Of a DNA stretch of 44,256 nucleotides, positions 2,319 through 31,787 are shown in pieces. The notes beneath the pieces were generated by a model that worked only from the letters and a program-made list of their open reading frames with translations, was not told the DNA's origin and ran no database searches. The position numbers and the translations under genes were made by a program. Position 1 is the stretch's first letter. Every line of letters starts with the position of its first letter. The stretch covers positions 1 through 44,256 of the IMG/VR virus record IMGVR_UViG_3300033145_000171. One strand, given 5' to 3'. This DNA is from a virus.

Positions 2319-2361
2319 GGTTTTCACCCCTATGGTCCTTTGGACTGTTGGATTTTAACCG

Positions 2362-2395
2362 TTCTCCCAGGGTAGCACCACCTACCCCAGGAGAG
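2362..2395. other. Strong hairpin upstream of an XRE gene
   Basis: Arms 2362-2375 and 2382-2395 pair over 14 positions with one 2x2 internal mismatch around a CACCAC loop. No U-tract follows on either strand, so a simple intrinsic terminator is unlikely. It sits between the divergent genes at 2318 (leftward) and 2464 (rightward), so it could be a structured leader or a protein-binding site. Confidence 0.45.
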
Positions 2396-2463
2396 AGCCT
2401 AACTGTTTGAATTGAGACGGCTTTCCCCTTTCAAAACCTTTAGACCCATTTTCTTATACCATA

Positions 2464-2706
2464 ATGGTTACAAAAGTAACAACAAATAAAAATATTACAA
2501 CTTTTAAATACCTTATCCGTGAGGGATACCTGCCGTCACACATCATTTCATTTCTATTAAATTCTACCGAAACCTCCAAGTCAGACATTGCCAGAATGAG
2601 TGGGGTCAGCCCGCAATACGTCACTATGGTTATTTCTGGCCGCCGGAGGTCTGAGAGAGTCACACAGGCCATTGCAAAAATTCTTGGATTTAACCCTTTC
2701 CAGTAA
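2464..2706 (+). CDS. XRE-family HTH regulator
   Basis: This 80-aa protein carries a clear lambda-repressor-type HTH at about residues 33-72: the helix TSKSDIARMSGVSPQYVTMV followed by ISGRRR and a last helix QAIAKILG. Small single-domain XRE proteins of this size usually act as phage regulators. The start codon lies within a GTTAC/GTAAC inverted repeat (2465-2480), which could be a self-binding site. The ribosome site is weak. The gene runs directly into the ribbon-helix-helix gene (11-base gap), suggesting a two-regulator unit. Confidence 0.75.
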   Translation: MVTKVTTNKNITTFKYLIREGYLPSHIISFLLNSTETSKSDIARMSGVSPQYVTMVISGRRRSERVTQAIAKILGFNPFQ

Positions 2707-2716
2707 AGGAGCCATT

Positions 2717-2983
2717 ATGCCTGAGCAAGCATCGGTCACGTTTAAACTGTCAGAGGAAATGGCTGACTGGGTCAGCCGTACCGCTTTCGATCTTGATAAA
2801 AATAAGTCTGAGGTTATTCGCTGCTGCATTTTATTAAGCCTTGACGCAATTATCGCTGTTCCGAGTTTGACTAATCGTATCCAATTTGAGGACCGAACGT
2901 CAATAAGACAAAAGGAAGATTTTTGTCTTACCCAATATATTGAGGATAGAATTATTGACACTACAACATACAGTTTTTCATGA
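2717..2983 (+). CDS. Ribbon-helix-helix (Arc/CopG-like) DNA-binding protein
   Basis: The ATG at 2717 follows AAAGGAG. In the 88-aa product, QASVTFKLSEEMADWVSRTA followed by FDLDKNKSEVIRCCILLSL matches the ribbon-helix-helix plan: a short beta-strand (VTFKLSEE), helix A, a turn containing K-S-E-V-I-R, and helix B (residues about 4-45). Such proteins bind DNA as dimers and act as repressors. The C-terminal 40 residues are unassigned. It is 11 bases downstream of the XRE gene and probably cotranscribed. Confidence 0.7.
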   Translation: MPEQASVTFKLSEEMADWVSRTAFDLDKNKSEVIRCCILLSLDAIIAVPSLTNRIQFEDRTSIRQKEDFCLTQYIEDRIIDTTTYSFS

Positions 2984-3075
2984 CTCACTCCTACATTGAC
3001 GGCCAAAAATCAAGCCCCCCGCCTGCCCCGGTATCGGGAGCCTTCGGGTTTGCAAAGAGGGGGCAATTTTAAATC

Positions 3076-3282
3076 ATGAAACTCACAGTTATTAAAACAG
3101 GCAATATGGTTGACATATTCACTGATGGTAGCGAGGGCGACGATGATTTCAATTACGGCAATATCGAGCGTATGTACGCTACCGGCCCTGGCATTGGGTT
3201 GCAGTGCAACAATGAGAGTAAGCGAAAAGCGTTGCTGGAAATGTGTGGCAAGATTGCTGAGGCGGTGAGAGGTTTTGAGTAA
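3076..3282 (+). CDS. Small early protein of unknown function
   Basis: This 68-aa protein begins MKLTVIKTGNMVDIFTDGSE, a beta-hairpin-like start, and ends in a helix with KRKALLEMCGKIAEAVRGFE. The ribosome site is weak (GGGGGCAATTTTAAATC before ATG). It lies in the run of small early genes, all rightward. No family recognised; coding character is good for its length. Confidence 0.55.
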   Translation: MKLTVIKTGNMVDIFTDGSEGDDDFNYGNIERMYATGPGIGLQCNNESKRKALLEMCGKIAEAVRGFE

Positions 3283-6888: not shown

Positions 6889-7634
6889 TGGAGCGAGGGT
6901 ATATTAAATTGTCTCGGCGACTCTTAGATAATCAAATGTGGTGCGCTGAGTCTTTCACCCGAGGGCAGGCATGGGTTGATATGTTGTTATTGGCTAACCA
7001 TAAAGACGGTTACATCCTAAAAAGAGGCATTGAGGTTAAGGTTCAAAGGGGACAAATAGGATGGTCTGAATTGGCACTTGCTAAACGGTGGGGGTGGTCC
7101 AGGGGAAAAATTCGGCGCTTCTTCGAGACGCTCGTGAGAAAGGAAAAAATAGTACAACAGAAAACAAACATAACTACCTTAAATGAGATAGTAAATTACA
7201 ACCTATATCAAGCAGGTGGTACACCAAGCGGTACACCAAACGGACACCAAACGGACACCAAACGGTACACTAACAAGAATGATAAGAAGGGAAAGAAAGA
7301 AAAGAATAAGAGATATACGTCTGATTTTGAAACTTTTTGGAAGGCATATCCTGAAAAGATAGGAAAGCAGCCATCATGGGAAAAATGGCAGAAAATAAAT
7401 AACTCAAGACCACCATTAGAAACCATATTGAAGGCAATTGAAAAACAAAAGCAAAGTGATAAATGGAAAAATGGCTTTATCCCTAATCCCTTAACATGGC
7501 TCAATCAAGCACGATGGGAAGATGAAACAAAGGAGATTATAGGAGATGGAAGTATATACGACCGACTTATTGCAGCAAATGAAAAGGCTGACGCGGTGGT
7601 ACAACAGGAAGGATCTCACACAGGACCAGCTTGA
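6888..7634 (+). CDS. Replication initiator-like protein (winged helix plus DnaD-like C-terminus)
   Basis: The GTG start overlaps the previous stop by one base. The 248-aa protein begins with a winged-helix-like domain (residues 1-105), opening GYIKLSRRLLDNQMWCAESF and containing WGWSRGKIRRFFETLVRKEK. This is the form seen in phage replisome organisers and DnaD-like initiators. A low-complexity Lys/Asn/Thr linker (about 110-145) follows, then FWKAYPEKIGKQPSWEKWQK and FIPNPLTWLNQARWED, the C-terminal module often found in phage O-like replication proteins. It most likely binds the phage origin; the linker sequence 7215-7270 with repeated ACACCAA units could include the origin. Confidence 0.7.
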   Translation: MERGYIKLSRRLLDNQMWCAESFTRGQAWVDMLLLANHKDGYILKRGIEVKVQRGQIGWSELALAKRWGWSRGKIRRFFETLVRKEKIVQQKTNITTLNEIVNYNLYQAGGTPSGTPNGHQTDTKRYTNKNDKKGKKEKNKRYTSDFETFWKAYPEKIGKQPSWEKWQKINNSRPPLETILKAIEKQKQSDKWKNGFIPNPLTWLNQARWEDETKEIIGDGSIYDRLIAANEKADAVVQQEGSHTGPA

Positions 7635-8112
7635 AATGTGGGACGATCAGATCGGCAGTATCCCAAGGTCGATATTAAGCCAGCTCGTGAATCAGATAAT
7701 TGACACCAACAAGTTTATGCCCACACCTGGGGAAATCAAGAAGCTATACGGAGAATTTAAGCGTTATCATCCTGACCAGTTCTTGCCGACCGATCAGGAA
7801 AAGGAATCTTGCCGGGCGTGTAGAGGTGCCGGTCGAATCATTGCCTGGAAAATTACAGAAGCATTTCCTTATGAATATTCTTTAGCTTGCGGTCATTGCA
7901 ATAATTGGCGAAGGGTATTTCCTACCAGGCCGAGTGGTCCACCAGCCAATACTATGCCTCCAAAACTAATGAAAATCGAAGATATCACGAAGGGCGGCTA
8001 TGTTTTGGAAGATCCTTGGCAGAAAGAAAGCTCAACTCAAGGGGAATATAAGAACATTGACGATATGGCGGAGGCTGTAGGGTCGAGCTTTCAGGATGAA
8101 ATACCCTTTTAG
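7546..8112 (+). CDS. Helicase-loader-like protein with zinc finger
   Basis: The start overlaps the end of the previous gene by 89 bases. Residues about 8-75 (LLQQMKRLTRWYNRKDLTQD, and later NKFMPTPGEIKKLY) match the helical pattern of G39P-type loaders that deliver the replicative helicase to the initiator. The middle holds a zinc-binding module with CRACRGAG (about 88-95) and a CGHCNNW (about 114-120), like the DnaJ-type CxxCxGxG. The acidic C-terminus ends FQDEIPF, resembling SSB-tail-like ends. Pairing with the initiator supports a P- or DnaC-like job; the helicase itself is not visible. Confidence 0.55.
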   Translation: MEVYTTDLLQQMKRLTRWYNRKDLTQDQLEMWDDQIGSIPRSILSQLVNQIIDTNKFMPTPGEIKKLYGEFKRYHPDQFLPTDQEKESCRACRGAGRIIAWKITEAFPYEYSLACGHCNNWRRVFPTRPSGPPANTMPPKLMKIEDITKGGYVLEDPWQKESSTQGEYKNIDDMAEAVGSSFQDEIPF

Positions 8113-8120
8113 GAGGCGAC

Positions 8121-8309
8121 ATGACAACAATAACGATACTATTAGCCGGGATACTTTTTTTAAACGTGATCCGACTATGTTTAGCACTCAGGCAGGCGGT
8201 GAAATTGGGTCAACTTGAAAAGCGCCAACAATGTGTGGGGGAGATAAACGAGGAATGGCAAAAAATGGAGGCCGGGTTTTTAGCTGATGAAATATCTAAG
8301 GGGGTATAA
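8121..8309 (+). CDS. Small membrane protein with N-terminal transmembrane helix
   Basis: The 62-aa product starts MTTITILLAGILFLNVIRLC, a single hydrophobic span, followed by a charged amphipathic helix rich in Gln, Glu and Lys. The ribosome site AGGAGGCGAC is strong. It stands inside the replication operon; membrane-anchored early proteins of this kind may exclude other phages or tether replication, but no family is recognised. Confidence 0.55.
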   Translation: MTTITILLAGILFLNVIRLCLALRQAVKLGQLEKRQQCVGEINEEWQKMEAGFLADEISKGV

Positions 8310-8470: not shown

Positions 8471-9144
8471 CAGAAACAGTAGCGAAGTATGAAGTAGAGA
8501 AGCGGCCCGATGTCGAGATCATGGTGATCCCGGATGTTGAATTTCAATTCAATGCGTTGAGATTCCATAGGCGGTTAGATGACGCAACGATTGAGCAGTT
8601 ATTCAGTGGATTGCGGAAATTCAAAGAGGGGTACCAGTGGTTTTTTAGCGATGCGTGGTGGGAATTAGAAAACCTCGGCTATGAATGGACTGACTGGATA
8701 CCTGAATCAATAGCATTAGGGACTGCACAAACATGGCGTAAGGTAGGCAATATGTTCATACCGGATGATCGGAGATACAGTCAACTGCAATTCAGCCATT
8801 ATGCGGCGACTCGAAAACTCGGTATTGTGGATGCCCATAAAATCTTGGAAGCGGCAAACGAAAACGGTTGGCCTGAGAAGGCGGTTAGGGAGGCGGTTGA
8901 CCTTGTATTGGGCAAACCCGAGAAGGCTAAGAAACCAAAAGTCGTACAATGCAAACACTGTGATCGATGGATTGCGGATATCGAGGATGAGGTGTGCCCA
9001 TTTTGTGCTCTGGACGTGGCAGAGGGCCGGGTAAAAGGCCTGCGAGACGTACTGCGGGCTATCAGGGACAGCGAAGAAAATAATTTAGGACTATATGCCA
9101 AGTTTACCGTTGAGTTAGCAGTTAAGGCACTGGAGGGGATATGA
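8467..9144 (+). CDS. Putative DNA-binding protein with zinc ribbon
   Basis: ATG overlaps the previous stop (ATGA), giving 225 aa. Residues about 110-145 (YSQLQFSHYAATRKL, then HKILEAANENGWPEKAVREA) follow the KorB/ParB-like helical pattern 'FSHy...A...L..A...gW....lRe.v' seen in phage DNA-binding proteins. A zinc ribbon follows at about 159-179 (CKHCDRWIADIEDEVCPFC), then a helical tail. It may regulate or mark phage DNA. Tightly packed with the two nuclease genes downstream. Confidence 0.5.
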   Translation: MTETVAKYEVEKRPDVEIMVIPDVEFQFNALRFHRRLDDATIEQLFSGLRKFKEGYQWFFSDAWWELENLGYEWTDWIPESIALGTAQTWRKVGNMFIPDDRRYSQLQFSHYAATRKLGIVDAHKILEAANENGWPEKAVREAVDLVLGKPEKAKKPKVVQCKHCDRWIADIEDEVCPFCALDVAEGRVKGLRDVLRAIRDSEENNLGLYAKFTVELAVKALEGI

Positions 9145-9581
9145 GATGGTCAGAAGACGAATATTCAGCTTTCATAAAGGGCAAAGAGGAAAAGGTGGTT
9201 GAAGCTGTGAGATCCGGCAAAACAACCCCACGGCCTATAATACCACAACCACAAATGACCAAGACCGAAGCTCGGTTTTATGAATTCTGCGAAATGCGGA
9301 AACACCTGAAAGAAATTATGGATTATGTTTATGAACCATGCCGGTTGATATTGTCGCCGAACGTCAAAGAAAAGCGAAATGCTGTCAGCTATTTACCAGA
9401 CTTTCTTGTAATCCATCCTAGGTATTTTGAATTTGTTGAGATCAAGGCAAGGCGGGGGAGTTGGTCAAGTATGAGGGATGACGCACGGGCAAAAATCAAT
9501 ATTGCGGCTGATAAATTTCCGTGGTTTAAATTCACGGTAGCGTACCTTGAAAAAGGGAAATGGACGTTTGAGAACGTTTGA
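9141..9581 (+). CDS. PD-(D/E)XK nuclease, DUF1064/resolvase-like
   Basis: The 146-aa protein contains the layout of small phage PD-(D/E)XK nucleases: MTKTEARFYEF (conserved Glu in the first helix, about residue 42), YLPDFLVIHPRYFEFVEIKA (catalytic Asp, Glu-x-Lys at about 86-105), then a conserved basic helix and FTVAYLEKGKWTFENV. DUF1064-type relatives often act as Holliday-junction or structure-specific endonucleases. Together with the exonuclease and annealing-like genes, this fits late replication or recombination. It overlaps the previous stop (ATGA). Confidence 0.65.
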   Translation: MRWSEDEYSAFIKGKEEKVVEAVRSGKTTPRPIIPQPQMTKTEARFYEFCEMRKHLKEIMDYVYEPCRLILSPNVKEKRNAVSYLPDFLVIHPRYFEFVEIKARRGSWSSMRDDARAKINIAADKFPWFKFTVAYLEKGKWTFENV

Positions 9582-11649: not shown

Positions 11650-12051
11650 TTATAATTTATAAAACCAATGCTCCCCCATCCTAAATACCGGGTGCCTGCC
11701 TTCTGCCCAATAAGGAGGGTCAATGGATATTGCATAATAGTGATTAGAGCCATTACTAATATCTTGAATCCAATTATTATACACTCCGAAAGCCGCAAAC
11801 TTACACTCACGCCACCAGGGTTCGGAATAATTACGCTTAAAAATTTCAGGTCTGAGAAATGCAGGTAGAAAACAGGAGAATTGTTTAGGTTGTAAGAGAA
11901 CGTCTTTGTAATTATCAGGCCAGCGGGGATCGGACACTCGATTACGCACTACGCAAGCGACTGCCAGCTTTCCGAATAATGGCTCACCCTCACTTTCGCC
12001 AAGCACACAGGCGAGAAGGAGGTCAAACTCGTCTTTTTTGTAAAGGTCCAT
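11650..12051 (-). CDS. SleB-type cell-wall hydrolase (endolysin)
   Basis: The 133-aa protein is a single Hydrolase_2/SleB domain: LLACVLGESEGEPLFGKLAV near residues 12-31 with the catalytic-type Glu, AVACVVRNRVSDPRWP, then QFSCFLPAF and the terminal region with YYAISIDPPYWAEGR. SleB enzymes act on the glycan strand of peptidoglycan, so this is the likely phage endolysin. It lacks a signal peptide and so should need a holin; several small membrane proteins nearby could serve. Start chosen at GAGGTATCATT-ATG. Confidence 0.8.
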   Translation of the reverse strand: MDLYKKDEFDLLLACVLGESEGEPLFGKLAVACVVRNRVSDPRWPDNYKDVLLQPKQFSCFLPAFLRPEIFKRNYSEPWWRECKFAAFGVYNNWIQDISNGSNHYYAISIDPPYWAEGRHPVFRMGEHWFYKL

Positions 12052-12060: not shown

Positions 12061-12267
12061 TCATTTCCACAACATCGCTTTCCCGGCTATTGCCGCAAAG
12101 CCCCCAAGAAATCCACCGGCAATAGAAGAGGCTTTGTCAATTTTCTTTCGTTTATTTAGTTTGCAAAGCTGCTTATGTGTATCCTGAGACAGATCAAACA
12201 AGACACTCAACTTAGAATCTGAGTTCATGGCTTCAAAAGTATCTTTAGTTATTGCAGTGCCGTTCAT
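12061..12267 (-). CDS. Small membrane-anchored lysis-region protein
   Basis: The 68-aa product has a soluble helical N-terminal part (SDSKLSVLFDLSQDTHKQLC) and a short basic turn (KLNKRKKIDK). A C-terminal glycine-rich hydrophobic span follows (ASSIAGGFLGGFAAIAGKAM). This arrangement recalls XhlA-type hemolysin/holin-associated proteins. It lies directly upstream of the endolysin gene. The role in lysis is inferred from position and topology. Confidence 0.6.
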   Translation of the reverse strand: MNGTAITKDTFEAMNSDSKLSVLFDLSQDTHKQLCKLNKRKKIDKASSIAGGFLGGFAAIAGKAMLWK

Positions 12268-12396: not shown

Positions 12397-13341
12397 TTAC
12401 TGAAACTTATATCTGATTATTATTACGCCGGAGCCGCCAGCCTTACCAGCTCTTACGGTAGAATTATCAAGATACCCTGCACCACCACCACCACCACCAG
12501 TGTTAGCAGTTCCGGCTGTTGCAGCTATCGTATTGTCCGATCCATCGCCACCACCGCCAGTTCCACCACTTGCAACAGACACCCCATCGGTATCTACACC
12601 ACCACCACCCCCACCTGCACGGGTTACTGACACGCCTGTGATTGAGTTTGCTAATCCATTTCCTCCAGGTCCACCTTCCTCTTCTGGATTAGCGCCAATG
12701 CTACCTGCTGCGCCAGCACCTCCACCACCACCACCGCCTGATCTTTTGTCAACAGGGACTTCGGTGCTATCACCACCATCATTTCCATACGCACCACTTG
12801 TTCCGCCAGTATAACCTCGACTACCTGCGCCACCACCAGAACCATTAACAGATGCAAGTCCGTCAACTGTAATTACCGCTCCACCCCCACCACCATTTGC
12901 CGTAATGGTATCAAACACAGAATCTTCACCATTACTACCACTTGCATCTGCCCCATATGCCGCTCCAGCCCCACCGTCACCGACTGTAATGCTATACGCT
13001 TGTTTTGTCACAGGGTGGTCATAAGCACCGTTTGTTCTATGGGCTCCACCTCCACCACCCCCCGCAACCTTATTTCCTGAACCTCCCCCACCCCCAACGA
13101 CTAAATACTCTACCAGTCTATCAATAATCTCAAAATCACCAGATGACTGAACATTGAAAGTGCCAGACGAATTAAAGGTATGAATCTTATAATCACCGTC
13201 CGTTGTGACAGACCCATCAGTTGAGAGAGCATACAAAGCACGAAACGCCTTCCTTTGATGCATTAAATAATTTCTATCTGCATAGCACCAAGTGGCTATT
13301 AATGCTAAAACAATAACTAAAGCAAATATTCGACTCTTCAT
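12397..13341 (-). CDS. Glycine-rich tail adhesin with signal peptide
   Basis: The 314-aa protein begins with a Sec-type signal (MKSRIFALVIVLALIATWCY, with A-D following at about 21/22). Next come a short region with FNSSGTFNVQSSG and the hallmark LVVGGGGGSGN (about residue 75). The remainder is glycine-rich, with GGGGGA blocks, and ends SGVIIIRYKF. This matches the glycine-rich adhesin domain of phage fibre tips, which folds as polyglycine-II helices and binds receptors. A secretion signal on such a protein is unusual; see also 14274-15263, 18029-20425 and 20438-21205. Confidence 0.75.
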   Translation of the reverse strand: MKSRIFALVIVLALIATWCYADRNYLMHQRKAFRALYALSTDGSVTTDGDYKIHTFNSSGTFNVQSSGDFEIIDRLVEYLVVGGGGGSGNKVAGGGGGGAHRTNGAYDHPVTKQAYSITVGDGGAGAAYGADASGSNGEDSVFDTITANGGGGGAVITVDGLASVNGSGGGAGSRGYTGGTSGAYGNDGGDSTEVPVDKRSGGGGGGGAGAAGSIGANPEEEGGPGGNGLANSITGVSVTRAGGGGGGVDTDGVSVASGGTGGGGDGSDNTIAATAGTANTGGGGGGAGYLDNSTVRAGKAGGSGVIIIRYKFQ

Positions 13342-13550
13342 TATGAACTCCAGTCCTGACGTTTTAAGATTGCCAGCATTAACTTTGTCAGCTTCTTGAT
13401 AACTACTTTAGCACCCGCAAGGTCAGTTACATTATTGTCAATGTATTTGTCTACCTGAGCGTAGGTTTTGTTTGCCAGGACTGAGGCAATCATCTGCGCT
13501 TTTGCGTCTGCCTGTTTTGCGAATACATCTGCATCAAATTGATGATCCAT
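13341..13550 (-). CDS. Small fibre-cluster protein
   Basis: The 69-aa product is helical (DADVFAKQADAKAQMIASVL, then AKVVIKKLTKLMLAILKRQD). It lies between the fibre-related gene at 13560 and the adhesin, with its stop overlapping the adhesin start region (TGAACTCC / ATG). Short helical genes at this place are usual in phage fibre operons and may be assembly partners. Good ribosome site AGGAGGGT. Confidence 0.5.
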   Translation of the reverse strand: MDHQFDADVFAKQADAKAQMIASVLANKTYAQVDKYIDNNVTDLAGAKVVIKKLTKLMLAILKRQDWSS

Positions 13551-13559
13551 AATACCCTC

Positions 13560-14261
13560 CTATTCTACCGGCCAATCTGGAGTTACGTTCCTGACTGCCG
13601 CTACTGTTTCGGCTGCGTCTACTGTATCTTCACAAGAGTTAGATTCTATGATTATATTTGCGATATGGGTTTTTATCGGGTTACCAATCTCTGAACCATA
13701 GATAGCATTAGCGACATTGGTCTGCCTCCAAAGTGGATACTCTGCAAGGATGGCTAAACGTGCGCCATTCCTAACATCTGCTAACTTTGCGATCTTGGCA
13801 TCTGCAAGGGGCTTGTCAGACACGGCATACGTCCGCACAATCTTAGTTTCTTGAATGTCATAGGTCGGGTCAGTTGTACGGGTCTGAGTAACCGGGTCAT
13901 AGCTGCTATCACCATCCTCGATTATCAGATAGCCATTATCTGTTAGCCACGTGAGTTGCTCCGGGAAAGCGGGACATGGATAGGTCTTGACATCTGTAAC
14001 CTCGGCCTCAACCACCTTGCCGTAATCGGTCGAGGCCCGGTCCTTGATGGCGTAGGTTCTGACTATTTTCTCCGCCTGGATATCGTAGGTCGGAGCTGAG
14101 GTTCTTACCTGAGTAGCGGGATCGTATGAACTGTCGCCGTCCTCTCCTATCCGCCAATCAGTCCCGCCTTTTGTCATTTTCGATAATAGCAATGGATCAG
14201 GAGTTTCAAACACCCGTATCTCTGCTACTTGATTATTTTGTATCTTTCCGTACCATTCCAT
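13560..14261 (-). CDS. Fibre-associated protein with internal duplication
   Basis: The 233-aa protein has a duplicated module. EDGDSSYDPATQVRTSAPTY at about residues 40-59 and EDGDSSYDPVTQTRTTDPTY at about 116-135 are each followed by DIQ-x-x-KIVRTYA. The DNA of the two copies has diverged, so the duplication is old. The C-terminal part, LADVRNGARLAILAEYPLWR onward, resembles DUF4376-like tail accessory domains. It is probably a fibre assembly or attachment component. No signal peptide, unlike the genes at 12397 and 14274. Confidence 0.55.
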   Translation of the reverse strand: MEWYGKIQNNQVAEIRVFETPDPLLLSKMTKGGTDWRIGEDGDSSYDPATQVRTSAPTYDIQAEKIVRTYAIKDRASTDYGKVVEAEVTDVKTYPCPAFPEQLTWLTDNGYLIIEDGDSSYDPVTQTRTTDPTYDIQETKIVRTYAVSDKPLADAKIAKLADVRNGARLAILAEYPLWRQTNVANAIYGSEIGNPIKTHIANIIIESNSCEDTVDAAETVAAVRNVTPDWPVE

Positions 14262-14273
14262 AATAACCTCCTA

Positions 14274-15263
14274 TTACCAGGCAGAAACTGTATTATCTTT
14301 CTTATACTGAAATAAAACACCAAACAACCAGGCATCATCATCCATATTATCCGTCCCATCAGTATTGCGGAAAACCTCAAACACAATCATATCGCCAAGG
14401 GCCTGAGCTTGTGCTACAACAATAACCGCCGTAGCGGAAGTAATGTGCATATCCGAAGATGCTAACACGGTATCGCTAATAGTTACGGCAGTACCTAAAG
14501 CTGTGTCAATAGCAACGTCATTAGCTAAAGCCCCTGCCTTAATACCCCATTCGACTGTTTCAGCCGCTGAGCCGGTTGTGTCGTCTGCCCAATAAAACTT
14601 AGCTTTCATAGTAGCATCTGACCTGTCCCAGTCTTCCGGCATGACGAGCTTGAACTGCACCCGTTCTTCTGTCACGCCCGGATCAAAAGCGAAATAATCA
14701 AAGTCAATATCATTAGTGCCATATTCGTTAGTTCCTGCTGCAGCCCCATTTGTCGTGCTGGGAACCATCGCACCGGCGTCAATGTAGACAGTGCCATATT
14801 CTGCGAGGTTGTCAGCAATCAAAGCCTTATTACAGGTCACAGCCGTTGCACTACTGGTTAGGGTTACGCTCTGGTCATTTTGAAAATAAAGAATTGCACC
14901 ATCCGCATAGTATGCATCGGACCATTCTTTTGATGCTGAGCCTTGAGTTGCCCCATCTGCCGTATCCGGGTCAATGGATGTCTCCACAGTAGGTGATCCG
15001 GTCAGGGCGGGAGATGCTAATGGGGCTTTTGCATCAATTTGGCCTTGTACACCAGACGAAACCCCGCTAAGATAACCAAGCTCTGTAGCTGTCGTGGCAG
15101 AGGAAGCAAGGTCTTTTTCCGCATCTGTTACAACTGCTTTGGAAGCCGTCAAATCCGTAACCCGCAATCCAGTGAACTTTGTTTCATGCGCCGCATATCC
15201 GATACCCGCAAAAAGCAAGCTCAAAATTACAATTTCAATAATCCATCGTTTTAAATTCAACAT
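14274..15263 (-). CDS. Tail-fibre-like protein with signal peptide
   Basis: The 329-aa protein opens with a signal-like segment (IEIVILSLLFAGIGYA, cleavage expected after GYA near residue 24). A phage-fibre stretch follows, TGLRVTDLTASKAVVTDAEK then ELGYLSGVSSGVQGQIDAK, where the last is the common 'tail fibre Q-x-Q-I-D-A-K' linker. The rest is beta-rich (about 130-329), with a jelly-roll-like look. Fibre proteins normally lack export signals, so its location in the cell is unclear. Confidence 0.65.
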   Translation of the reverse strand: MLNLKRWIIEIVILSLLFAGIGYAAHETKFTGLRVTDLTASKAVVTDAEKDLASSATTATELGYLSGVSSGVQGQIDAKAPLASPALTGSPTVETSIDPDTADGATQGSASKEWSDAYYADGAILYFQNDQSVTLTSSATAVTCNKALIADNLAEYGTVYIDAGAMVPSTTNGAAAGTNEYGTNDIDFDYFAFDPGVTEERVQFKLVMPEDWDRSDATMKAKFYWADDTTGSAAETVEWGIKAGALANDVAIDTALGTAVTISDTVLASSDMHITSATAVIVVAQAQALGDMIVFEVFRNTDGTDNMDDDAWLFGVLFQYKKDNTVSAW

Positions 15264-15274
15264 TATAGCCTCCC

Positions 15275-15727
15275 TTATAAAACCATTCTCTGACTTCGTA
15301 CCGTCCAGTTATCGCTACCTGCTGTTGCTCGTAGCCGTACAGTGTTGGTGTCTATATCTACAGCCAAAGTAAGGTCAGATGTGTCACCAACGTCTAACGT
15401 GCTGACCTCTGTATATTCAATCGTGTCGTTTGTGGCATCCCACGCAGCCATAATTTGACCTGTGCGTCTGTTAAGAGCACTATCATTATCTATAACAACA
15501 TAAAACCAAACAACCCCTTCACCTAAAGTATCTGCGAAACTGTCAACTGTTTCCGTACCTATGTCAATGTCTATGTTGCTTGCGATAGTAAAGGAAGCAC
15601 CTAATGAAACTTCATCTCCAGTGTCATCCTTCTTGTAAATTCCCCCCCCGGCTTTCGGGTAGAGCGCCACTTTATTCGCTGCTGGTGTATCTGCTGCGGC
15701 CTGTTCTTCAAGAATTATCTTTCCCAT
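15275..15727 (-). CDS. Fibre-cluster virion protein
   Basis: The 150-aa product starts MGKIILEEQAAADTPAANKV and contains ALYPKAGGGIYKKDDTGDEV. This is a phrase typical of phage fibre and tail proteins, where 'P.aG..~lY.kd~~G~e~' forms a small beta module. A beta-rich domain follows. It follows the short anchor protein by eight bases, with AGGAG before ATG. The exact role, perhaps a minor fibre or receptor-binding part, is inferred. Confidence 0.55.
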   Translation of the reverse strand: MGKIILEEQAAADTPAANKVALYPKAGGGIYKKDDTGDEVSLGASFTIASNIDIDIGTETVDSFADTLGEGVVWFYVVIDNDSALNRRTGQIMAAWDATNDTIEYTEVSTLDVGDTSDLTLAVDIDTNTVRLRATAGSDNWTVRSQRMVL

Positions 15728-15735
15728 GAGTTCTC

Positions 15736-16023
15736 CTAATAAACAGCGATTAAACCGTTACCATTAATAGTGAGAATTCCCGTCCCTTCTATGATATATT
15801 CGTGAGCCAATAAGAGTTGTTTATAGTCTCCAATAGTAATGGCTTCACCTGTAGCTATGCGATAGTCAACAATATCATCCCCCGCAGAAAGGGAGATCTC
15901 GTGATTAGCAGCGCCGTCTCCCACATATAACTGGTGCGTGTCAGTACTAAACCCGAACTCACCCGCATTGAGGGTCGGAAGTGAGGCGTTTGCCCCGCGC
16001 CGGACTTGGATAGTGTTCGCCAT
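15736..16023 (-). CDS. Short fibre anchor-domain protein (paralogue of 16477-17553)
   Basis: The 95-aa product consists of MANTIQVRRGANASLPTLNA, a hinge of about 20 residues, and a C-terminal beta part. The N-terminal 45 residues are close to those of the 358-aa fibre at 16477-17553. This 'TIQVRRG...LPTL..GE.gf..dt..lyiGdG..n' module is known from hyaluronidase-like and other fibre proteins. The gene therefore looks like a duplicate of the anchor domain joined to a different short tip. Confidence 0.65.
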   Translation of the reverse strand: MANTIQVRRGANASLPTLNAGEFGFSTDTHQLYVGDGAANHEISLSAGDDIVDYRIATGEAITIGDYKQLLLAHEYIIEGTGILTINGNGLIAVY

Positions 16024-16026
16024 CGG

Positions 16027-16413
16027 TTACTTTCTCTTCTTTACGGCCTTTTTCTTTTGCTTTAACCGTTCTATTTCTTCATTTTTCCGGGTAAGACCAT
16101 TTGTTAAACTTGCAATTTCTTCCCCGAGCCTTACAATCTCAGCGTCCAACTTCCGGTTGTTTTCCTGATAAAGGGCGTTGGATTTCTGAAGCTCCTGCTT
16201 TTCGGCCTCCACGTTTGACTTTGTCTGGGCAACTTCCGATGTTGCCGCGCTCAAGGCCTGTGTTTTTTGGACCATGCTGTTCAACAGTTTTTCGTAATTG
16301 ATTCTTTTGACTGTCTGGTTCCCTAACTCAAAAATCAGGTCGTCAGTGTCCACAATCGAGGGAAACCGCTCTTTGATCAAAGGTTCTTCCTGTGTGATCG
16401 TTGCATCTTCCAT
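16027..16413 (-). CDS. Coiled-coil protein in fibre cluster
   Basis: The 128-aa protein has an N-terminal segment with FPSIVDTDDLIFELGNQTVK and then an uninterrupted coiled coil (about residues 40-120, with NNRKLDAEIVRLGEEIASLT). It ends in KKKAVKKRK. Between two paralogous fibre genes, it may be a fibre assembly chaperone or trimerisation helper. Ribosome site AAAGGAGCATC. Confidence 0.55.
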   Translation of the reverse strand: MEDATITQEEPLIKERFPSIVDTDDLIFELGNQTVKRINYEKLLNSMVQKTQALSAATSEVAQTKSNVEAEKQELQKSNALYQENNRKLDAEIVRLGEEIASLTNGLTRKNEEIERLKQKKKAVKKRK

Positions 16414-16476
16414 GATGCTCCTTTTTATGAATTCTTCCGATTAAAACTCCACACTTTAGGCACTTAAAACTTTCGT

Positions 16477-17553
16477 TTACGCAAAGGCTCCGCCGTCAAT
16501 TGTGCTGGCAGAATGCAACAACGTATTTGCCCCCGCCCCATGAACCCCGGTTGCGGCCGCGTCATGGTCAAAGGCCCAGTCGCTGTTCGGGGCCTTTTCT
16601 GTCTCGCCATTAGTCGGGGAGGCCTCAAGATAAGTAGCAGCAAAACCGACAAACTCAAGGGCTGTCTCACCTGCGTTTACCCTGGCAATCTTCAACGTGC
16701 TTCCGGTAAAATTGGCAGGGGTATCGCTCAATCCGACAAAAGTGGATACGGGAGCCGCGGCGCTTGAAAACTGGGTAAAGGTAAGACCGGTTGTATCAAC
16801 AGTGATCGTATCATTCGTGGTAAGAATCCATCCCTCATCACCGTTAGCGGTACCCTGCTCGATAAAAGTAAAGGCTCCGGCGGTGACCTCTGCGTCTGCA
16901 TCAAAGTCCGTTGCCCTTGTCAGGATAAAAGCAACCCCTGCTGTTCCCTCGGTCGTGACTTTATAGATGCCATTATCTGCGCCCGCGGCCTGGTCTTTAA
17001 CGAGGATGCGGTCATTTAGCACGGTAGCTATGCCGTCAACAGTCAAAACATCGACTGCGTCCGCTGTCAGCGTTTTTCCCACTCCTGACCCTGCCGCAGT
17101 ACATGCGGGCAATGCCGCGGCCGTGGCCAATTTACACGAAGCATGGAGATCGAGGCCGCTTAATGTAGCGTCAACATAATTCTTTGTTGCCACGTCCTGG
17201 TTAGCGGTCGGATCAACAACCCCTGTGATCTTATGTGTATTCATGGCAAAATCTGCACCGGATTGACCTGACAGAATCGCCATAATCTCCGCACCCGTAA
17301 GGGCAGCGATGTTCCCTGCTGTCTTGCGGCCGACAATCCTTTGCTCCGCAATCGTTACCGCGACAGGCGTGTCATCCGAAACCGCTGCCAACAGAGACTG
17401 TGCGTCAAACAGCTTGTGCATCACCATCTCGTGATTAGCTGCACCATCCCCGATATGAACCTGCTTGGTGTCCGTGCTGAACCCGAACTCACCGGCCGCT
17501 AAGGTCGGCAACGATGCAAAAACTCCACGTTTTACCTGAATTGTATTTGCCAT
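16477..17553 (-). CDS. Tail fibre protein
   Basis: This 358-aa protein has the anchor MANTIQVKRGVFASLPTLAA with FSTDTKQVHIGDGAANHEM (residues 1-45). A middle part contains HKITGVVDPTANQDVATKNY (the widely shared 'K-I-x-x-x-x-x-P-x-x-x-x-D-A-x-x-K-x-Y' fibre repeat, about 105-125). A beta-rich domain with DNGIYKVTTEGTAGVAF follows. It ends STIDGGAFA, a C-terminal DGGxF tag shared with the 17681-18025 gene. It lacks a signal peptide and so probably joins the virion. Confidence 0.75.
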   Translation of the reverse strand: MANTIQVKRGVFASLPTLAAGEFGFSTDTKQVHIGDGAANHEMVMHKLFDAQSLLAAVSDDTPVAVTIAEQRIVGRKTAGNIAALTGAEIMAILSGQSGADFAMNTHKITGVVDPTANQDVATKNYVDATLSGLDLHASCKLATAAALPACTAAGSGVGKTLTADAVDVLTVDGIATVLNDRILVKDQAAGADNGIYKVTTEGTAGVAFILTRATDFDADAEVTAGAFTFIEQGTANGDEGWILTTNDTITVDTTGLTFTQFSSAAAPVSTFVGLSDTPANFTGSTLKIARVNAGETALEFVGFAATYLEASPTNGETEKAPNSDWAFDHDAAATGVHGAGANTLLHSASTIDGGAFA

Positions 17554-17680
17554 GATTTATTCTCCCTTGGAATTTGTTATTGGTTATCAGTTATCAGCTA
17601 TCTGACTTCGTTTCGCGTGTTATTTGTTTATAGCTGACAGCTTATGGTTTCTATGAGCTAAGAGAGAGCCATTAACTATC
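17554..17680 (-). other. Low-complexity spacer between fibre genes
   Basis: The 127 bases hold degenerate short repeats of the type AGCTGATAACTGATAACC and related TTATAGCTGACAGCTTA, like junk spacers of some bacterial chromosomes. No gene is visible apart from the ribosome site (AAGGGAGAA) of the fibre gene. Confidence 0.5.
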
Positions 17681-18025
17681 TCAAAAGCTTCCGCCATCAA
17701 CGGCTTCCGCTTCATCTACAATGTTGGTTTCATCTGCGTCATACACCGACTTACGCATCATTTCATCATCCATATCAGCTTCAAGATTGTCCATCCGTGT
17801 ATCCAACTCAGCCATAGACAGGCCATCCTCCGTCGCTATGTCAATTACTGTTCCCGTTGTAGGCGGAAGGACCTGCATGGTGCTGTCTTTAAGCAACCAT
17901 GCGCTGTTAGTCAGCCTATTCACCCATATAACTGCATAATCATAGTCAGCGTCCGCAATCGTCGGAGCACACTCTCTGATTAAGGTCGTTTTAGTTGGTA
18001 ATAGCAGGTCCCACCGTAGAGTCAT
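17681..18025 (-). CDS. Small fibre-cluster protein with DGGSF end
   Basis: The 114-aa protein is beta-rich at first (ADADYDYAVIWVNRLTNSAW), then a helical acidic part (ELDTRMDNLEADMDDEMMRK), ending IVDEAEAVDGGSF. The DGGxF ending is shared with the fibre at 16477-17553 and many short fibre proteins, perhaps a sheath or trimer-closure element. It starts three bases after the stop of the S74 fibre gene. A minor fibre part is likely. Confidence 0.55.
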   Translation of the reverse strand: MTLRWDLLLPTKTTLIRECAPTIADADYDYAVIWVNRLTNSAWLLKDSTMQVLPPTTGTVIDIATEDGLSMAELDTRMDNLEADMDDEMMRKSVYDADETNIVDEAEAVDGGSF

Positions 18026-18028
18026 TAT

Positions 18029-20425
18029 TTACCTTGCTTCCAGTTCTTTCACTCTTGCCGAGAGTTCTTGAACTGCCTTGATTAACGGTATAATCAGACT
18101 TCCATAGGTAATGCTCTTTTTACCATTTGAAGCCGTTTTAACAACCTCCCAATCTAAACCGTTTTCGACTAAAACCTTTTCAACATCCTGTGCAATCAAG
18201 CCAAGATACGTCCGGTCATCCTCTTTAGCGTCTTCAACTCCAGCAGGTCGGATTTCTTTCGGCCAATCTAATGCTTTAATGCGCTGGTAGGTGATAGGGG
18301 TGAGAGAGTTAATAAAGTTTAAGCCAACGGGTATGTCAGTGACATTTTTTTTAATCCGTTCATCAGAATCTACAGTAAGGTCAACCTGGCAATGCAAGGC
18401 CGAAATAGAGGTATTGCCAAGGGTGGCAGTGTTTGAACCGTTTCCAATCGCGTTGTATCCGATAACGATTTCATTGGTTATTGCATCTTCGCCGCCAGAT
18501 GGGTCCGAGCCGGATTTAGTATTAGCCCCAAGATACACAGAATACTCAGGCGTTTGAAGCCAATTTGTGCCATCATTTTGATATGCTCCAGCCTCGTATC
18601 CTGCGCCAGTGTTATAAGAACCGGTTGTATTTCCCTGTAATCCGGCGCTTCCAAACCCCGCATTATATTGTCCTTCAGTATTATAATAGAGAGCACTAAC
18701 CCCAGTTGCAGTATTTATTGATGCAGTGGTATTAGACCGCAATGCGTATTTGCCTAATGCAACATTATTGTCCCCTCCTGTATTTTCATTCATGGTCTGA
18801 TAGCCAAGTGCTATATTAGAGCCACCAGTTGTATTTTTGTATAGGGCTGAAGTGCCAATGCCAACATTGTAATCGCCTTCTGTGTTAGTTACTAATGCGT
18901 TTATTCCAACTGCAACATTGCCATAACCAATAGTATTTTCATATAAACCACGATATCCAATGGCAATATTGCCATAACCAGTAGTGTTGTCATATAGAGC
19001 TTGATATCCGATTGCACTATTCTGGGAGCCTTTCGTGTTTGAATACAAACACTGATACCCCATTCCGTAATTATATGATGATTCTGTAACTAAAGTTGCA
19101 GTGCTTCCCATTGTAAGGTTGCCACAAGCAACCCCTAAAAAAGCATTGTACCCTTCAGGCTGCACAGATCCATTATGTGCCGGATTAAAGTCATACAGCC
19201 ATCTACTACCATTCTTGTAAATAATTCCAACACCAGTGCCGACATTTGCATCAACACTAATGTTTAAATTAGTTCCATCATAATTTATATACTTGTTCGA
19301 CCCGTCGCCTACATAAAAACGTGGAGTTCCACCATTGTACTGAAGTTGTATTCCAGCATTACCAAAAGTGGTGTTATTAACAGATATCGCTTTATTAGAA
19401 GCATCAAAAACAATATCAGTTCCATTCGCAAGAGTTGTCGAACTCAGAGTAAAGCCCCCGATCGTTCCCGAAGTGGCGGTCAAGGCCCCCGCCTCAGTAA
19501 CCCTAAAGGGCGCACTCGCGGGCGTAGCGTTACCTGCCCAGAACCTTACATCGTCTCCACCAGTGACATTACAGTTCATTCCTGTGGTACCGGCAGTATC
19601 TTTAATTTCATAAGTGCCAAGGGTCCAACCGCCTATCTCCCCCGATGCGGCAACAACGGTTCCTTTCAAGTAAACACTATCGGAGTACAGACCCCATACG
19701 TCCGTTGAATCCAGACCCACATCTGAGTCTATAATCCCTTGCAGCCAGCCAAGACGAGCTTTAAGGCTATAATCTGAATATGTGTTGGAGTTCCGTGCGT
19801 ATATGTCAATAAAAGGACTGTTTGCGCTTGAACTGTCTAATGTGATAAATCCTGTTTTAGAGCCTGTTCCTACGCCCATAGAAACAACAGCAGTTCCCTT
19901 TGTCCAAATCGGATTAGTGTCTGCTGTGTAATCTGCGGCCAAATCACGGGTTACGGTATATGTCGGCGCACTTCCGGCGTTTGTAACCAATAGCCATTCG
20001 TCATCTGTTCCGTCCTTTATCCTAAGCACTTCATTAGCAGAGAAGGTTGTTTCCCCTGATATTGTAAGAGTAGAAGCGTCAAGTGCGGTCATGTCAGCAT
20101 CAAGCACATCGGCACTTGAAACCATAATGAGACCGTTTACAGCGGATATAGTGTCTTTCTCGAAAACACTTGTCCTTATAATGCCCCTCGCCGTAATGTC
20201 CTGAAACTCCGCGCTTCCGTCGCTTAATATCCGCCAGCCTTTGCCAAGCGGTCCTGAAACAAAGGAATCCGTGTTTATCGAAGTACTGCCGAGCGAGTTC
20301 TTTTCACCACTACCGCAAACATAGGTTTCCTCATTATCAGCCCCAGCGCCACCTCTCTGAATAGCCCACGCAACCGGGACACTGAAAAAGATTAGTCCTG
20401 CTAATATCCATAAGAGTTTTTTCAT
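18029..20425 (-). CDS. Large tail fibre with S74 chaperone domain and signal peptide
   Basis: The 798-aa protein has four parts. A Sec signal is at 1-21 (ILAGLIFFSVPVAWA end). A region with several beta-strand fibre repeats (about 40-430) follows. Next is a block of about 11 short YadA/fibre-like repeats of type G-x-x-A-L-x-x-N-T-x-G-x-x-N (about 455-615). The last part is a C-terminal Peptidase_S74 intramolecular chaperone from SDERIKKNVTDIPVGLNFIN at about 688 to the end. It carries the Ser and Lys expected for self-cleavage. S74 domains trimerise fibres and are then removed. Receptor-binding function is inferred. The signal peptide is unexpected for a cytoplasmically assembled virion part. 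Confidence 0.8.
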   Translation of the reverse strand: MKKLLWILAGLIFFSVPVAWAIQRGGAGADNEETYVCGSGEKNSLGSTSINTDSFVSGPLGKGWRILSDGSAEFQDITARGIIRTSVFEKDTISAVNGLIMVSSADVLDADMTALDASTLTISGETTFSANEVLRIKDGTDDEWLLVTNAGSAPTYTVTRDLAADYTADTNPIWTKGTAVVSMGVGTGSKTGFITLDSSSANSPFIDIYARNSNTYSDYSLKARLGWLQGIIDSDVGLDSTDVWGLYSDSVYLKGTVVAASGEIGGWTLGTYEIKDTAGTTGMNCNVTGGDDVRFWAGNATPASAPFRVTEAGALTATSGTIGGFTLSSTTLANGTDIVFDASNKAISVNNTTFGNAGIQLQYNGGTPRFYVGDGSNKYINYDGTNLNISVDANVGTGVGIIYKNGSRWLYDFNPAHNGSVQPEGYNAFLGVACGNLTMGSTATLVTESSYNYGMGYQCLYSNTKGSQNSAIGYQALYDNTTGYGNIAIGYRGLYENTIGYGNVAVGINALVTNTEGDYNVGIGTSALYKNTTGGSNIALGYQTMNENTGGDNNVALGKYALRSNTTASINTATGVSALYYNTEGQYNAGFGSAGLQGNTTGSYNTGAGYEAGAYQNDGTNWLQTPEYSVYLGANTKSGSDPSGGEDAITNEIVIGYNAIGNGSNTATLGNTSISALHCQVDLTVDSDERIKKNVTDIPVGLNFINSLTPITYQRIKALDWPKEIRPAGVEDAKEDDRTYLGLIAQDVEKVLVENGLDWEVVKTASNGKKSITYGSLIIPLIKAVQELSARVKELEAR

Positions 20426-20437
20426 GTCGTTACCTCC

Positions 20438-21205
20438 TTAATTATCTGAACGATTTCTCTCATACCAAATACTTGAACCTGCATCCCACACCAGTTCTAA
20501 AATGTCTCCAACACCCAACGTAAAGGCTACATTCCCTGAAAGTGCCGTATTGCAGGCATCGGCAATCTGAACCGTATTGGAATCACTACATCCCTGTATT
20601 ATGAGAAGTTGCCCGTCATACGTTCCGTTTGCTATTGCAGGGTCGGTATCGAGAACGACCGCCCCGCCATTGCCAGCTACTCGCATTATGGAATTTGTGG
20701 TAGCTATCGAGGCGTCATTCGCATAGGTTGTGGGGGAGGCTGTTGTGGTATTTGGGGTTGTTGTGATAGTCGCACCTTCGACATTCCCCGTACCGGTTAC
20801 GCTGGTAAATGTAGGGGAGTCCCCCGTGCCTAACCCAAGACTTGTCCGGGCTGTATTTCCTGATTCATACGCAAAGACTCCTGCACCCGTAGCCACAATA
20901 AATTGACCGTCTGAGGCTGAGGCTCCAAGAGTGTCAAGGTCTTCGAGTACGCCATCTAACACTGCGATTTCTTCCCAAATAGCCGCCCCCGCCGTGTTAT
21001 CAATCAGCAGATAAAATTTATCGTTGGTTTCGTCTACCCACAGGTAAGGCACTCCGAAATTGTGATCATTTACAGTAGGCGCGGCAGTCTTTTTAATATA
21101 GGGAATTTTACTGGTGTCCCACCCAGACGAATCCCAAGCATAAGATCCACCTGCGAAAACGAACAGGCAGACAACAGCTATCAATATTAATAAGAACTTT
21201 TTCAT
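20438..21205 (-). CDS. Fibre-like protein with signal peptide
   Basis: The 255-aa protein starts with a strong Sec signal (LLILIAVVCLFVFAGGSYA, cleavage after SYA near residue 23). The next part, SKIPYIKKTAAPTVNDHNF with VPYLWVDETNDKFYLLID, is a typical phage-fibre 'aPt.ndh.~GvP.lWvde' module. A beta-rich C-terminal domain follows. It precedes the large S74 fibre and, with it, forms a secreted pair. Its location after HNH cassette B suggests that the cassette promoter could also transcribe it. Confidence 0.65.
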   Translation of the reverse strand: MKKFLLILIAVVCLFVFAGGSYAWDSSGWDTSKIPYIKKTAAPTVNDHNFGVPYLWVDETNDKFYLLIDNTAGAAIWEEIAVLDGVLEDLDTLGASASDGQFIVATGAGVFAYESGNTARTSLGLGTGDSPTFTSVTGTGNVEGATITTTPNTTTASPTTYANDASIATTNSIMRVAGNGGAVVLDTDPAIANGTYDGQLLIIQGCSDSNTVQIADACNTALSGNVAFTLGVGDILELVWDAGSSIWYERNRSDN

Positions 21206-21222: not shown

Positions 21223-21972
21223 CTAAGATGGAAAATTTAGTGGGTGCCCAGCATCCAGTTTTTTGGCAGCTCGGTCATATGCTCTTGCTGCTTCTATTGG
21301 GTCAGAATAAGTCCCAAGGTGGTAACGCTTACAATCGCTTTCTATTCTTGCCACCCATTTCTTATCACGTTTGTTAAAAGACAATCCTCGGAACCCGCTT
21401 GTATTGCTTGCCGTTAATAACCTTTTGTTTCTTGCACTTAAACCAGCATCAACAAAACGACAATTTGACGGAGAATACCCATCATTTACGTCAATTCTAT
21501 CAAGCAAAAGACCTTTTCCCCATCCATTAGATTCTGCCCATTCAATGAAAGCACTTGGATCGTTTAGCCATTCATCACAAACGGTTATTCCTCTGTCGCC
21601 CCAATCTTTAAAGCGATCATATTCAGAGTTGTTGCATCGTCGATTCATATTTGCCCATATATGATAAAGGGGATGCCCACGCAACCCGTGGGTTTTGCAT
21701 CTACAAACTGTTTCCTCTTTTCTAAGACACCCGCAAGATCTTGTGGTCCCTCTCTTCAGGCACTTCCATAAGGTTTCAGTGATATCGCCACAATCACATT
21801 TAAGTTTTAGCTTCCTACCTGTTTGCCCTGAGGGGTCAATGTAAGGTTCCACTTCTCCAATCACGGTTAGCCTACCGAATCGCATACCGATCATATCTTC
21901 AGTCTGATATTTGCGTTTTTTGTAATTTGGTTGATATTCTTTCTTTGATTCTGCTATACTGGATTTAGCCAT
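21223..21972 (-). CDS. HNH-type homing endonuclease with AP2 domain, cassette B
   Basis: The 249-aa protein (start chosen at GGAGGTAGGTATC-ATG) has three parts. A zinc-binding N-terminal part (about 22-95) contains MRFGRLTVIGEVEPYID and CDCGDITETLWKC...SCGCL. The nuclease core (about 105-175) has LYHIWANMNRRCNN, GDRGITVCDEWLNDPSAFIE and LLLDRIDVNDGYSPSNCRFV. A C-terminal AP2/ERF-like DNA-binding domain (about 185-240) has GFRGLSFNKRDKKWVARIES and EAARAYDRAA. Enzymes of this family cut DNA at or near their insertion site to copy themselves. It has its own promoter and hairpin leader and lies between two virion genes. Confidence 0.8.
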   Translation of the reverse strand: MAKSSIAESKKEYQPNYKKRKYQTEDMIGMRFGRLTVIGEVEPYIDPSGQTGRKLKLKCDCGDITETLWKCLKRGTTRSCGCLRKEETVCRCKTHGLRGHPLYHIWANMNRRCNNSEYDRFKDWGDRGITVCDEWLNDPSAFIEWAESNGWGKGLLLDRIDVNDGYSPSNCRFVDAGLSARNKRLLTASNTSGFRGLSFNKRDKKWVARIESDCKRYHLGTYSDPIEAARAYDRAAKKLDAGHPLNFPS

Positions 21973-22007
21973 GATACCTACCTCCACAAAAGGTGGTTGA
22001 TTGGTGA

Positions 22008-22041
22008 GAAGCGGTATAGGGACACCACCCTGTATCGCTTC
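22008..22041 (-). other. 5'-leader hairpin of HNH cassette B
   Basis: Fourteen-base arms (22008-22021 and 22028-22041) pair at 12 of 14 positions around a 6-base loop, just after the predicted start of the cassette B transcript. A second short hairpin (CCAC-CTTTT-GTGG) lies immediately before the GGAGGT ribosome site and could modulate it. Confidence 0.6.
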
Positions 22042-22045
22042 GTTA

Positions 22046-22074
22046 TGTATAGCTAAATTTAGCATAGTTGTCAA
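22046..22074 (-). promoter_or_regulatory. Sigma-70 promoter of HNH cassette B
   Basis: Leftward TTGACA (22074-22069), a 17-base spacer and TATACA (22051-22046). It starts about four bases after the stop codon of the gene at 22079. The spacer ends with a perfect 12-base palindrome, GCTAAATTTAGC (22052-22063). Confidence 0.7.
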
Positions 22075-30516: not shown

Positions 30517-31787
30517 TATGCACCTCCTACGCTACTACCTGAATTGTAAAACCCGGCTGGCACAATTATCCATGTTTCAGTAAGGGTCGCCCCGGTATTT
30601 AATAGACTTAAATTCTGCCAGTTGAACCCGCCTGTACCGCTACCGTCCCGCCACGTCTTGAGCAGGCCCACACGTTCATCAACCTCATATTCCAGAAAGT
30701 CACTTGATTTAACAATGATTTCCTCGTTCTTGACCCATATTTTATACCTGTTTCCGACCTCTCCATCACCGGGTGTAAAGTCCTCATCAATGACCTGCAC
30801 TTCCTTAACAATCCCGGAAGTATAAAACTCGGTCTCCAACCAGTGCCCGGAATACAGAAAAGGCGAAGTCTCCTGAAACCACCAGCAATGTAAAGGCCAT
30901 GGCCTGCAAAGCATCCCCACAAACTCACCGGGTACTATCTCGGTATTACCCTCAGTAATCCAGTACCTAAGCCACTGGTGTAAGGGCGGGTTATCAAGAC
31001 CGTCAAAGTCTTCGGCAAACAGTTCAACCCTGATATCGTCCTCTACAAGATACCCCTTGCTCATGAGCTTTTCACCGGCCACCTCAGAACGGCTTACCTC
31101 AAAAGGCGGCAGCAGTTCTCCGCCCTGTACTGTGCCGTTCTCATAGTCAACCGGTTTCATGCGGCCGCTTGTCCCTCTGGACAAAGAGCTTTCAGTTGTG
31201 AGAGAGATATTAAACATAACTCCCAAGGGTCCCACAGGGAAGGCGATATACCCCACGTAGTCGCATGTGTTCTGCTTAGGCCTGTTAGAGGCATAGTTTA
31301 TACTGCCCCCGGTCTGCATGACCTCATACCGTGCCTCTTTGACTGTATATTCTTTAGTCCCAAAGCTATCAAATAATACGCCGTTACCGCCGCCGCCGGA
31401 TAGAGAATAGACTCCTGGAGTCGGTTTCGACTCGGGAGAGAGTAGAGGTTTCGCATCATCAATCTCCGAAAAGAAGTCAGCCATCTTAGCCATGGTTTCT
31501 TCTTTAGTCTTCCCGCCGAACTCAAGGATATTCCCGGCATCAAACAAGTACCAGATGTCATAGGCGGTACTTATACCCAACCCAACCCGCATAAGAGCAT
31601 CATCAGTACCGTAATTAAGAGTCCTGTCTCCTGGCGTAAAAACCAATCTATCAGCCAGCTCGCTCAAACCAGCAACGTCCCAAAGGGCTTGTACCCTTGC
31701 GAGAATACCACCAACAATGTTAGTCCCTGGAGGAAAGCCCGTCCTTATTCTGTATAAGTATTGAAGATATGGATTATCCTTAGCCAT
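30516..31787 (-). CDS. Virion protein downstream of HNH cassette C
   Basis: The start at 31787 (MAKDNPYLQYLYRIRTGFPP) gives 423 aa. It overlaps the end of HNH gene C: the last codons GAT GGC TAA contain the ATG. The N-terminal part is helical (GLGISTAYDIWYLFDAGNIL); the rest looks beta-rich with many aromatics (PLHQWLRYWITEGNTEIVPG, and CRPWPLHCWWFQETSPFLYS). It lies between the coiled-coil proteins and the disordered protein, so a tail or ejection-complex part is likely. No family recognised. Confidence 0.55.
   Translation of the reverse strand: MAKDNPYLQYLYRIRTGFPPGTNIVGGILARVQALWDVAGLSELADRLVFTPGDRTLNYGTDDALMRVGLGISTAYDIWYLFDAGNILEFGGKTKEETMAKMADFFSEIDDAKPLLSPESKPTPGVYSLSGGGGNGVLFDSFGTKEYTVKEARYEVMQTGGSINYASNRPKQNTCDYVGYIAFPVGPLGVMFNISLTTESSLSRGTSGRMKPVDYENGTVQGGELLPPFEVSRSEVAGEKLMSKGYLVEDDIRVELFAEDFDGLDNPPLHQWLRYWITEGNTEIVPGEFVGMLCRPWPLHCWWFQETSPFLYSGHWLETEFYTSGIVKEVQVIDEDFTPGDGEVGNRYKIWVKNEEIIVKSSDFLEYEVDERVGLLKTWRDGSGTGGFNWQNLSLLNTGATLTETWIIVPAGFYNSGSSVGGA

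Follow-up and report, generated by a model that had tools for sequence, protein, structure and literature searches.

The DNA analyzed here (the window), a virus record of 44,256 bases, is a fragment in which one gene is truncated at the right end. The late genes include, on the minus strand, an SU10-type adaptor (42343-43062; PF24175, 8e-11), a head closure (Hc3) or nozzle-like protein (41099-42352; phrog_8040, 4e-39) and an endolysin of the SleB-type cell wall hydrolases (11650-12051; PF07486, 1e-16), none of which has a signal. A holin candidate (12061-12267, minus strand) was assigned from the adjoining endolysin gene and its own C-terminal hydrophobic segment. The late genes also comprise a fibre block, several HNH genes and a gene whose 2,339-aa product weakly matches virion RNA polymerase. 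HNH or homing-endonuclease-like genes lie among the structural genes at 21223-22074, 31780-32538, 37744-38070 and 39464-40291.

Four open reading frames in the fibre block begin with a predicted Sec signal peptide. P1 (12397-13341) encodes a 314-aa glycine-rich adhesin-like protein, P2 (14274-15263) a 329-aa fibre-like protein, P3 (18029-20425) a 798-aa fibre or tail spike with a C-terminal S74 chaperone, and P4 (20438-21205) a 255-aa fibre-like protein. All four lie on the minus strand and start with ATG, and rereading of the upstream sequence identified a plausible ribosome-binding site in front of each (CTGGAG for P1, GGGAGG for P2, AAGGAGGT for P3 and TTGGAGGT for P4). The signal peptides, delimited from sequence and scorer, span 13279-13341, 15192-15263, 20363-20425 and 21137-21205, with predicted cuts at MKSRIFALVIVLALIATWCYA/DRN in P1, MLNLKRWIIEIVILSLLFAGIGYA/AHE in P2, MKKLLWILAGLIFFSVPVAWA/IQR in P3 and MKKFLLILIAVVCLFVFAGGSYA/WDS in P4.

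Signals were called with a rule-based scorer that combines a basic n-region, an uncharged hydrophobic core, the (-3,-1) rule and the absence of charge between core and cut site. It was calibrated on three E. coli K-12 regions, with a score of at least 8 taken as a call; at this threshold it called 20 of 24 known Sec signals, all six lipoproteins, 8 of 30 N-terminal membrane proteins and none of 62 cytoplasmic proteins of E. coli. When 58 window ORFs were scored, P1 to P4 reached 14.2, 12.0, 12.6 and 16.0, and the next-highest ORFs reached 9.7 and 8.7. These results confirm an earlier note on this DNA, which had described four fibre-like proteins with Sec signals at the same coordinates and proposed a predictor check; the scorer called all four. 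The probability that all four signals fall inside one 11-ORF fibre block of 58 ORFs is P ~8e-4.

The signals have the features of Sec/signal peptidase I substrates, with a basic n-region, an uncharged hydrophobic core, alanine at -1 in all four and an allowed residue at -3 (CYA, GYA, AWA and SYA in P1 to P4). The weaker two are P1, with cysteine at -3, and P2, with glycine at -3 and a glutamate between the n-region and the core. A lipoprotein reading was rejected, as no lipobox with cysteine at +1 occurs in any of the four. The cores are strongly hydrophobic (KD 2.4-3.5; LIVFM 50%-60%, AGST 24%-30%), and on this composition a signal-arrest-release (SAR) segment was also rejected. No later membrane segment was found in the mature parts of the four proteins, where the highest 19-aa hydropathy is 0.85-1.7. 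The rule-based nature of the scorer and two weak calls elsewhere in the window would leave room for N-termini that are hydrophobic by chance or for misplaced start codons. However, shuffled window N-termini scored 12 in only 7 of 17,400 trials (0.04%), and the signals are kept in relatives (see below). Wrong starts were rejected because a ribosome-binding site precedes each start, and chance, already strongly disfavoured, is given a very small probability. That P1 to P4 carry Sec-type signals on fibre proteins is, at the level of prediction, well supported.

Assignment of these proteins as fibres varies in strength. The clear fibre modules that had been claimed for all four were recovered in P1, which matches Gly_rich_2 (2e-27), and in P3, which matches Peptidase_S74 (3e-11) and the tail-spike family phrog_4636 (2e-51). 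P4 has a weak phage depolymerase C-terminal module (Phage_depo_C, 1e-4) that falls under the Pfam cut-off, and P2 has weak matches to fibre PHROGs only. About half of the window fibre block has no signal. Two genes on the minus strand that had been described as signal-less fibres lying among the four are indeed without a call, and both contain an Mtd_N domain: a short protein at 15736-16023 (8e-13) and a fibre at 16477-17553 (4e-11). Further signal-less ORFs of the block start at 13560, 15275, 16027 and 17681. The first of these (13560-14261, minus strand) encodes a 233-aa protein that had no family match in profile searches, including PHROGs, and that contains an internal repeat (GEDGDSSYDPATQVRT / IEDGDSSYDPVTQTRT). 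A small signal-less protein is encoded upstream of P4 (22079-22462, minus strand; E value of 2e-19 to L033 7606-7980), and one of the HNH or homing-type genes sits between the two. In several phages a small signal-less protein of 110-135 aa is encoded shortly before the first signalled fibre: this one in the window, L105 7565-7909, L101 1009-1416 and 1427-1825, and L026 4969-5304.

Since the scorer also calls some N-terminal membrane proteins, relatives are what decide between a cleaved signal and an anchor. A search with a 62-aa piece of the predicted mature N-terminus of P4 retrieved homologs in the contigs L105/L106 and L033. The L105/L106 protein starts with a different signal, MIKRFFLMTFAICLLWTSAFA, followed by WNGPWSVDGVPYIKKAAAPTV. 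The L033 protein (7992) has no signal, and its ORF starts with MTWNSGWNYGVMPYTKKTAAP at the predicted mature residue, so that the P4 cut site coincides with its start. When the junctions are aligned, SYA/WDSSGW in the window and AFA/WNGPW in L105 stand at the same place as MTWNSGW in L033. No hidden signal was found in frame upstream of the L033 copy as far as its stop, and the gene directly upstream of it is a relative of the window gene at 22079. Conservation of the signals in relatives, suggested earlier as a check, was found only in part. Two signalled P4 relatives were present among the 45 matches listed (L026 and L069) in addition to L105 from a later search; most P4 relatives, all 26 relatives of P3 and all 25 relatives of gene 16477 have none. 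The signal is thus dispensable, because most relatives of the fibre modules do without it. No P1 relatives were found in viral contigs or phage records. P4 relatives were also searched for in 155 genomes from the class to which the genome carrying L126 belongs (see below), and none was found, an uninformative result.

A second protein family, encoded beside the capsid gene, provides the same comparison in phages related to the window. The Hc3 protein at 41099-42352 was used as the query for finding these phages. The nearest relatives are L114, L115 and L116 (75%-80% identity, 75% for L116), and the more distant are L126, L128, L130, L129 and MetMV (45%-48%). L116 encodes a 636-aa protein (1353-3263) between its terminase and portal genes that starts with the signal MKKLFAFILTLSIAVMFMAPGAFA. 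The ORF at the right end of the window (43592-44256, minus strand), the C-terminal part of a protein truncated at the contig end, matches part of this protein with 86% identity over 66 aa. Judging from this homology, the phage probably carries a fifth signalled surface-protein gene at the truncated end of the window. In L128, the homolog directly after the capsid gene has the signal MKKITSLLIGLFLSVLFAFPVLGA and then continues with ERVLTVGG. The predicted cuts are VLGA/ERVLTVGG in L128 and AFA/GEKVVTIGG in L116. Signal-less homologs in L130, L118, MetMV, L129 and L126 start with MSERxLxVGG or MAERILTVGG at the cut site, and G087, a genome from the class to which that of L126 belongs, encodes a homolog that is also signal-less and starts there with MERVVTVGG. 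The L128 and G087 proteins are 57% identical over residues 24-328, their genes follow the capsid gene in the same order, and the only large difference between their starts is the signal, which lies exactly ahead of the conserved N-terminal motif. No hidden signals were found upstream in frame in L130, L118, MetMV, L129, L126 or G087. Family members show strong conservation of the N-terminal motif, and their genes remain in the structural module. Between its capsid and adaptor genes, L128 also encodes a small protein (7346-7732) that resembles lysozyme and has a Sec signal of its own.

These relatives suggest a host group for the phage family. L126 is a prophage in a delta-proteobacterial MAG, with bacterial housekeeping genes around it (neighbourhood L138), L128 is a contig of Deltaproteobacteria RBG_16_44_11, L130 is from Syntrophaceae UBA6255, and L129 is a contig of a Methanoperedens MAG. 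We infer that the host group is likeliest Desulfobacterota, which are diderm bacteria. An archaeal host was not assumed because the Methanosarcina host of MetMV is an in silico prediction only (PMC7164591). Integration of a relative of the MetMV family in a delta-proteobacterial MAG (L126/L138) is an uneasy fit with that prediction.

Because signal-less relatives begin at the predicted cut, trimming would restore the normal N-terminus of a virion protein, and on this agreement it is very probable that the signalled proteins are exported and cleaved by signal peptidase. The earlier note had offered a membrane anchor as an option. An uncleaved segment would tether the fibres at the inner membrane for assembly or would insert during infection. 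Cores of this hydrophobicity (KD 2.4-3.5) and the 8 of 30 N-terminal membrane proteins called in calibration are compatible with such a tether, but alanine at -1 in all four proteins, helix breakers ahead of the site in P2, P3 and P4, and the coincidence of the cut sites with the starts of signal-less relatives make it improbable. Misbinned host genes were also considered and rejected, as the genes belong to the late operon and related phages encode signal-less versions of them.

We searched for similar signals in other phages, using loci fetched through fibre modules on uncultured contigs, and several uncultured phages unrelated to that of the window have them on structural genes. In L101, almost every tail or fibre gene has a signal, among them those for a nozzle-like protein and a fibre with a collar domain; the adaptor, the two small upstream proteins and putative internal proteins have none. 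Two further signalled proteins encoded among the tail genes of L101, near the nozzle-like gene (7553-8209 and 8844-9305), resemble outer-membrane beta-barrels, end in F and have no Pfam match. The nozzle-like protein belongs to a family of ~810-830 aa encoded beside an SU10-type adaptor (PF24175), and a signal is present in all six distinct complete members, which are 44%-76% identical to the first. The family matches a 'phage stabilization protein' profile (hhalign, 96%). Direct comparison of profiles with P22 gp10 and with the window Hc3 gave no match, no PDB relatives were found, and the AlphaFold2 model is unusable (pLDDT of 31), so its identity as a nozzle rests on adjacency to the adaptor and the profile match. 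L026, L084, L105 and the metagenomic genome MW202898 also each encode one or more fibres or fibre-like proteins with a signal. No signalled structural proteins were called in P22, KPP25, MetMV or MW202497, and none was called among 21 genes for fibres or tail proteins in 10 further phage records, mostly from cultured phages. As most fibre relatives and all 21 comparison genes lack a signal, such signals are a minority trait concentrated in particular phages.

We propose that the four fibre or adhesin genes, and likely a fifth surface gene, encode proteins with cleavable Sec/signal peptidase I signals, which would be exported to the periplasm after translation and then trimmed. The trimmed N-termini would be those of the signal-less structural-module proteins in related phages, and the fibres would join the particle outside the cytoplasm. 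In the simplest timing, holin and endolysin would open the cell and cytoplasmic particles would meet periplasmic fibres; the signal-less endolysin and the holin candidate in the window imply that the two compartments would mix at lysis. The comparisons establish the predicted signals, their position, their exact junction with signal-less homologs in two families and their recurrence, and they give moderate support to an assembly route outside the cytoplasm. Less weight attaches to the trimmed proteins still belonging to the virion, for which the conserved N-terminal motif of the capsid-side family and the place of its genes in the structural module argue; were they virion proteins, addition outside the cytoplasm would follow. 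The full chain, in which fibres are exported, trimmed and then, perhaps during lysis, added to the particle outside the cytoplasm, has in our estimate an even chance of being correct. We know of no mechanism by which periplasmic fibres find virions.

Exported fibres could instead stay on the host cell and act as decoys, receptor blockers or adhesins, with signal-less fibres forming the virion. Such a role would account for signalled and signal-less fibres together in one phage, for the adhesin-like glycine-rich domain of P1, and for signal-less fibres being the rule elsewhere. However, trimming would leave the N-terminal motif that is also found in the signal-less structural-module proteins encoded next to the capsid gene, a place on the cell surface is difficult to reconcile with the signalled nozzle-like protein of L101 and its relatives, and P1 to P4 have no lipobox or anchor to keep them on the cell. 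We consider this role unlikely, if somewhat less so than the tether. Export might also serve folding, through oxidation or by separating sticky fibres from glycan precursors in the cytoplasm, with no new order of assembly. P3 and P4 do contain cysteines, including a pair in QGCSDSNTVQIADACN that also occurs in the signalled fibre of L026, but after the signal P1 has no cysteine and P2 has one, and the signal-less neighbours are similar; a folding role is rated quite improbable, below the tether. Assembly outside the cytoplasm is the best fit among the options first raised for these genes, given that signal-less relatives start at the predicted cut. In its general form, assembly of some tailed phages would be split between two compartments: head and internal proteins would remain in the cytoplasm, and outer appendages, in some phages even the tail nozzle, would pass through Sec, be trimmed and attach outside. 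We put this forward tentatively, at slightly below even probability.

Assembly of tailed phages is taught as a cytoplasmic process. The open-access papers searched contained no account of tailed-phage fibres or virion proteins with secretion signals and no description of a two-compartment route for Caudoviricetes. Two-compartment assembly would, if confirmed, be a new mode of tailed-phage assembly. If export of appendages is routine in some uncultured lineages, the order of assembly, the timing of lysis and the biology of superinfection would differ there, and signals on fibre genes would be a marker of exported assembly that can be read from genomes. The question can be tested directly on natural pairs with and without the signal, such as L128 and G087 (57% identical).

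Several known systems share parts of this arrangement. The S74 fibres and spikes of cultured phages (HTVC111P, CampHawk, P-SSM2 and others) have homologous modules, but those examined start without a signal. MetMV (MK170447) and the prophage L126 belong to the same phage family as the window by Hc3 (46%-47%) and encode the same capsid-side protein, but without a signal, and no MetMV protein was called by the scorer. SAR endolysins have an N-terminal Sec-directed segment that is weakly hydrophobic and uncleaved, whereas the cores of P1 to P4 are strongly hydrophobic and are followed by AxA-like sites. Llp of phage T5, a superinfection-exclusion lipoprotein, is a phage protein exported by Sec; proteins of this type are dedicated lipoproteins, whereas P1 to P4 have fibre modules and no lipobox. 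The coat proteins pIII and pVIII of filamentous phages are virion proteins with cleavable Sec signals that are assembled outside the cytoplasm, and at the sequence level P1 to P4 share with them the cleavable Sec signal. The second membrane anchor that holds the mature filamentous subunit is absent from P1 to P4. Filamentous phages are inoviruses whose membrane-anchored subunits are extruded without lysis, whereas the window is from a tailed phage with a lysis region of the holin-endolysin type.
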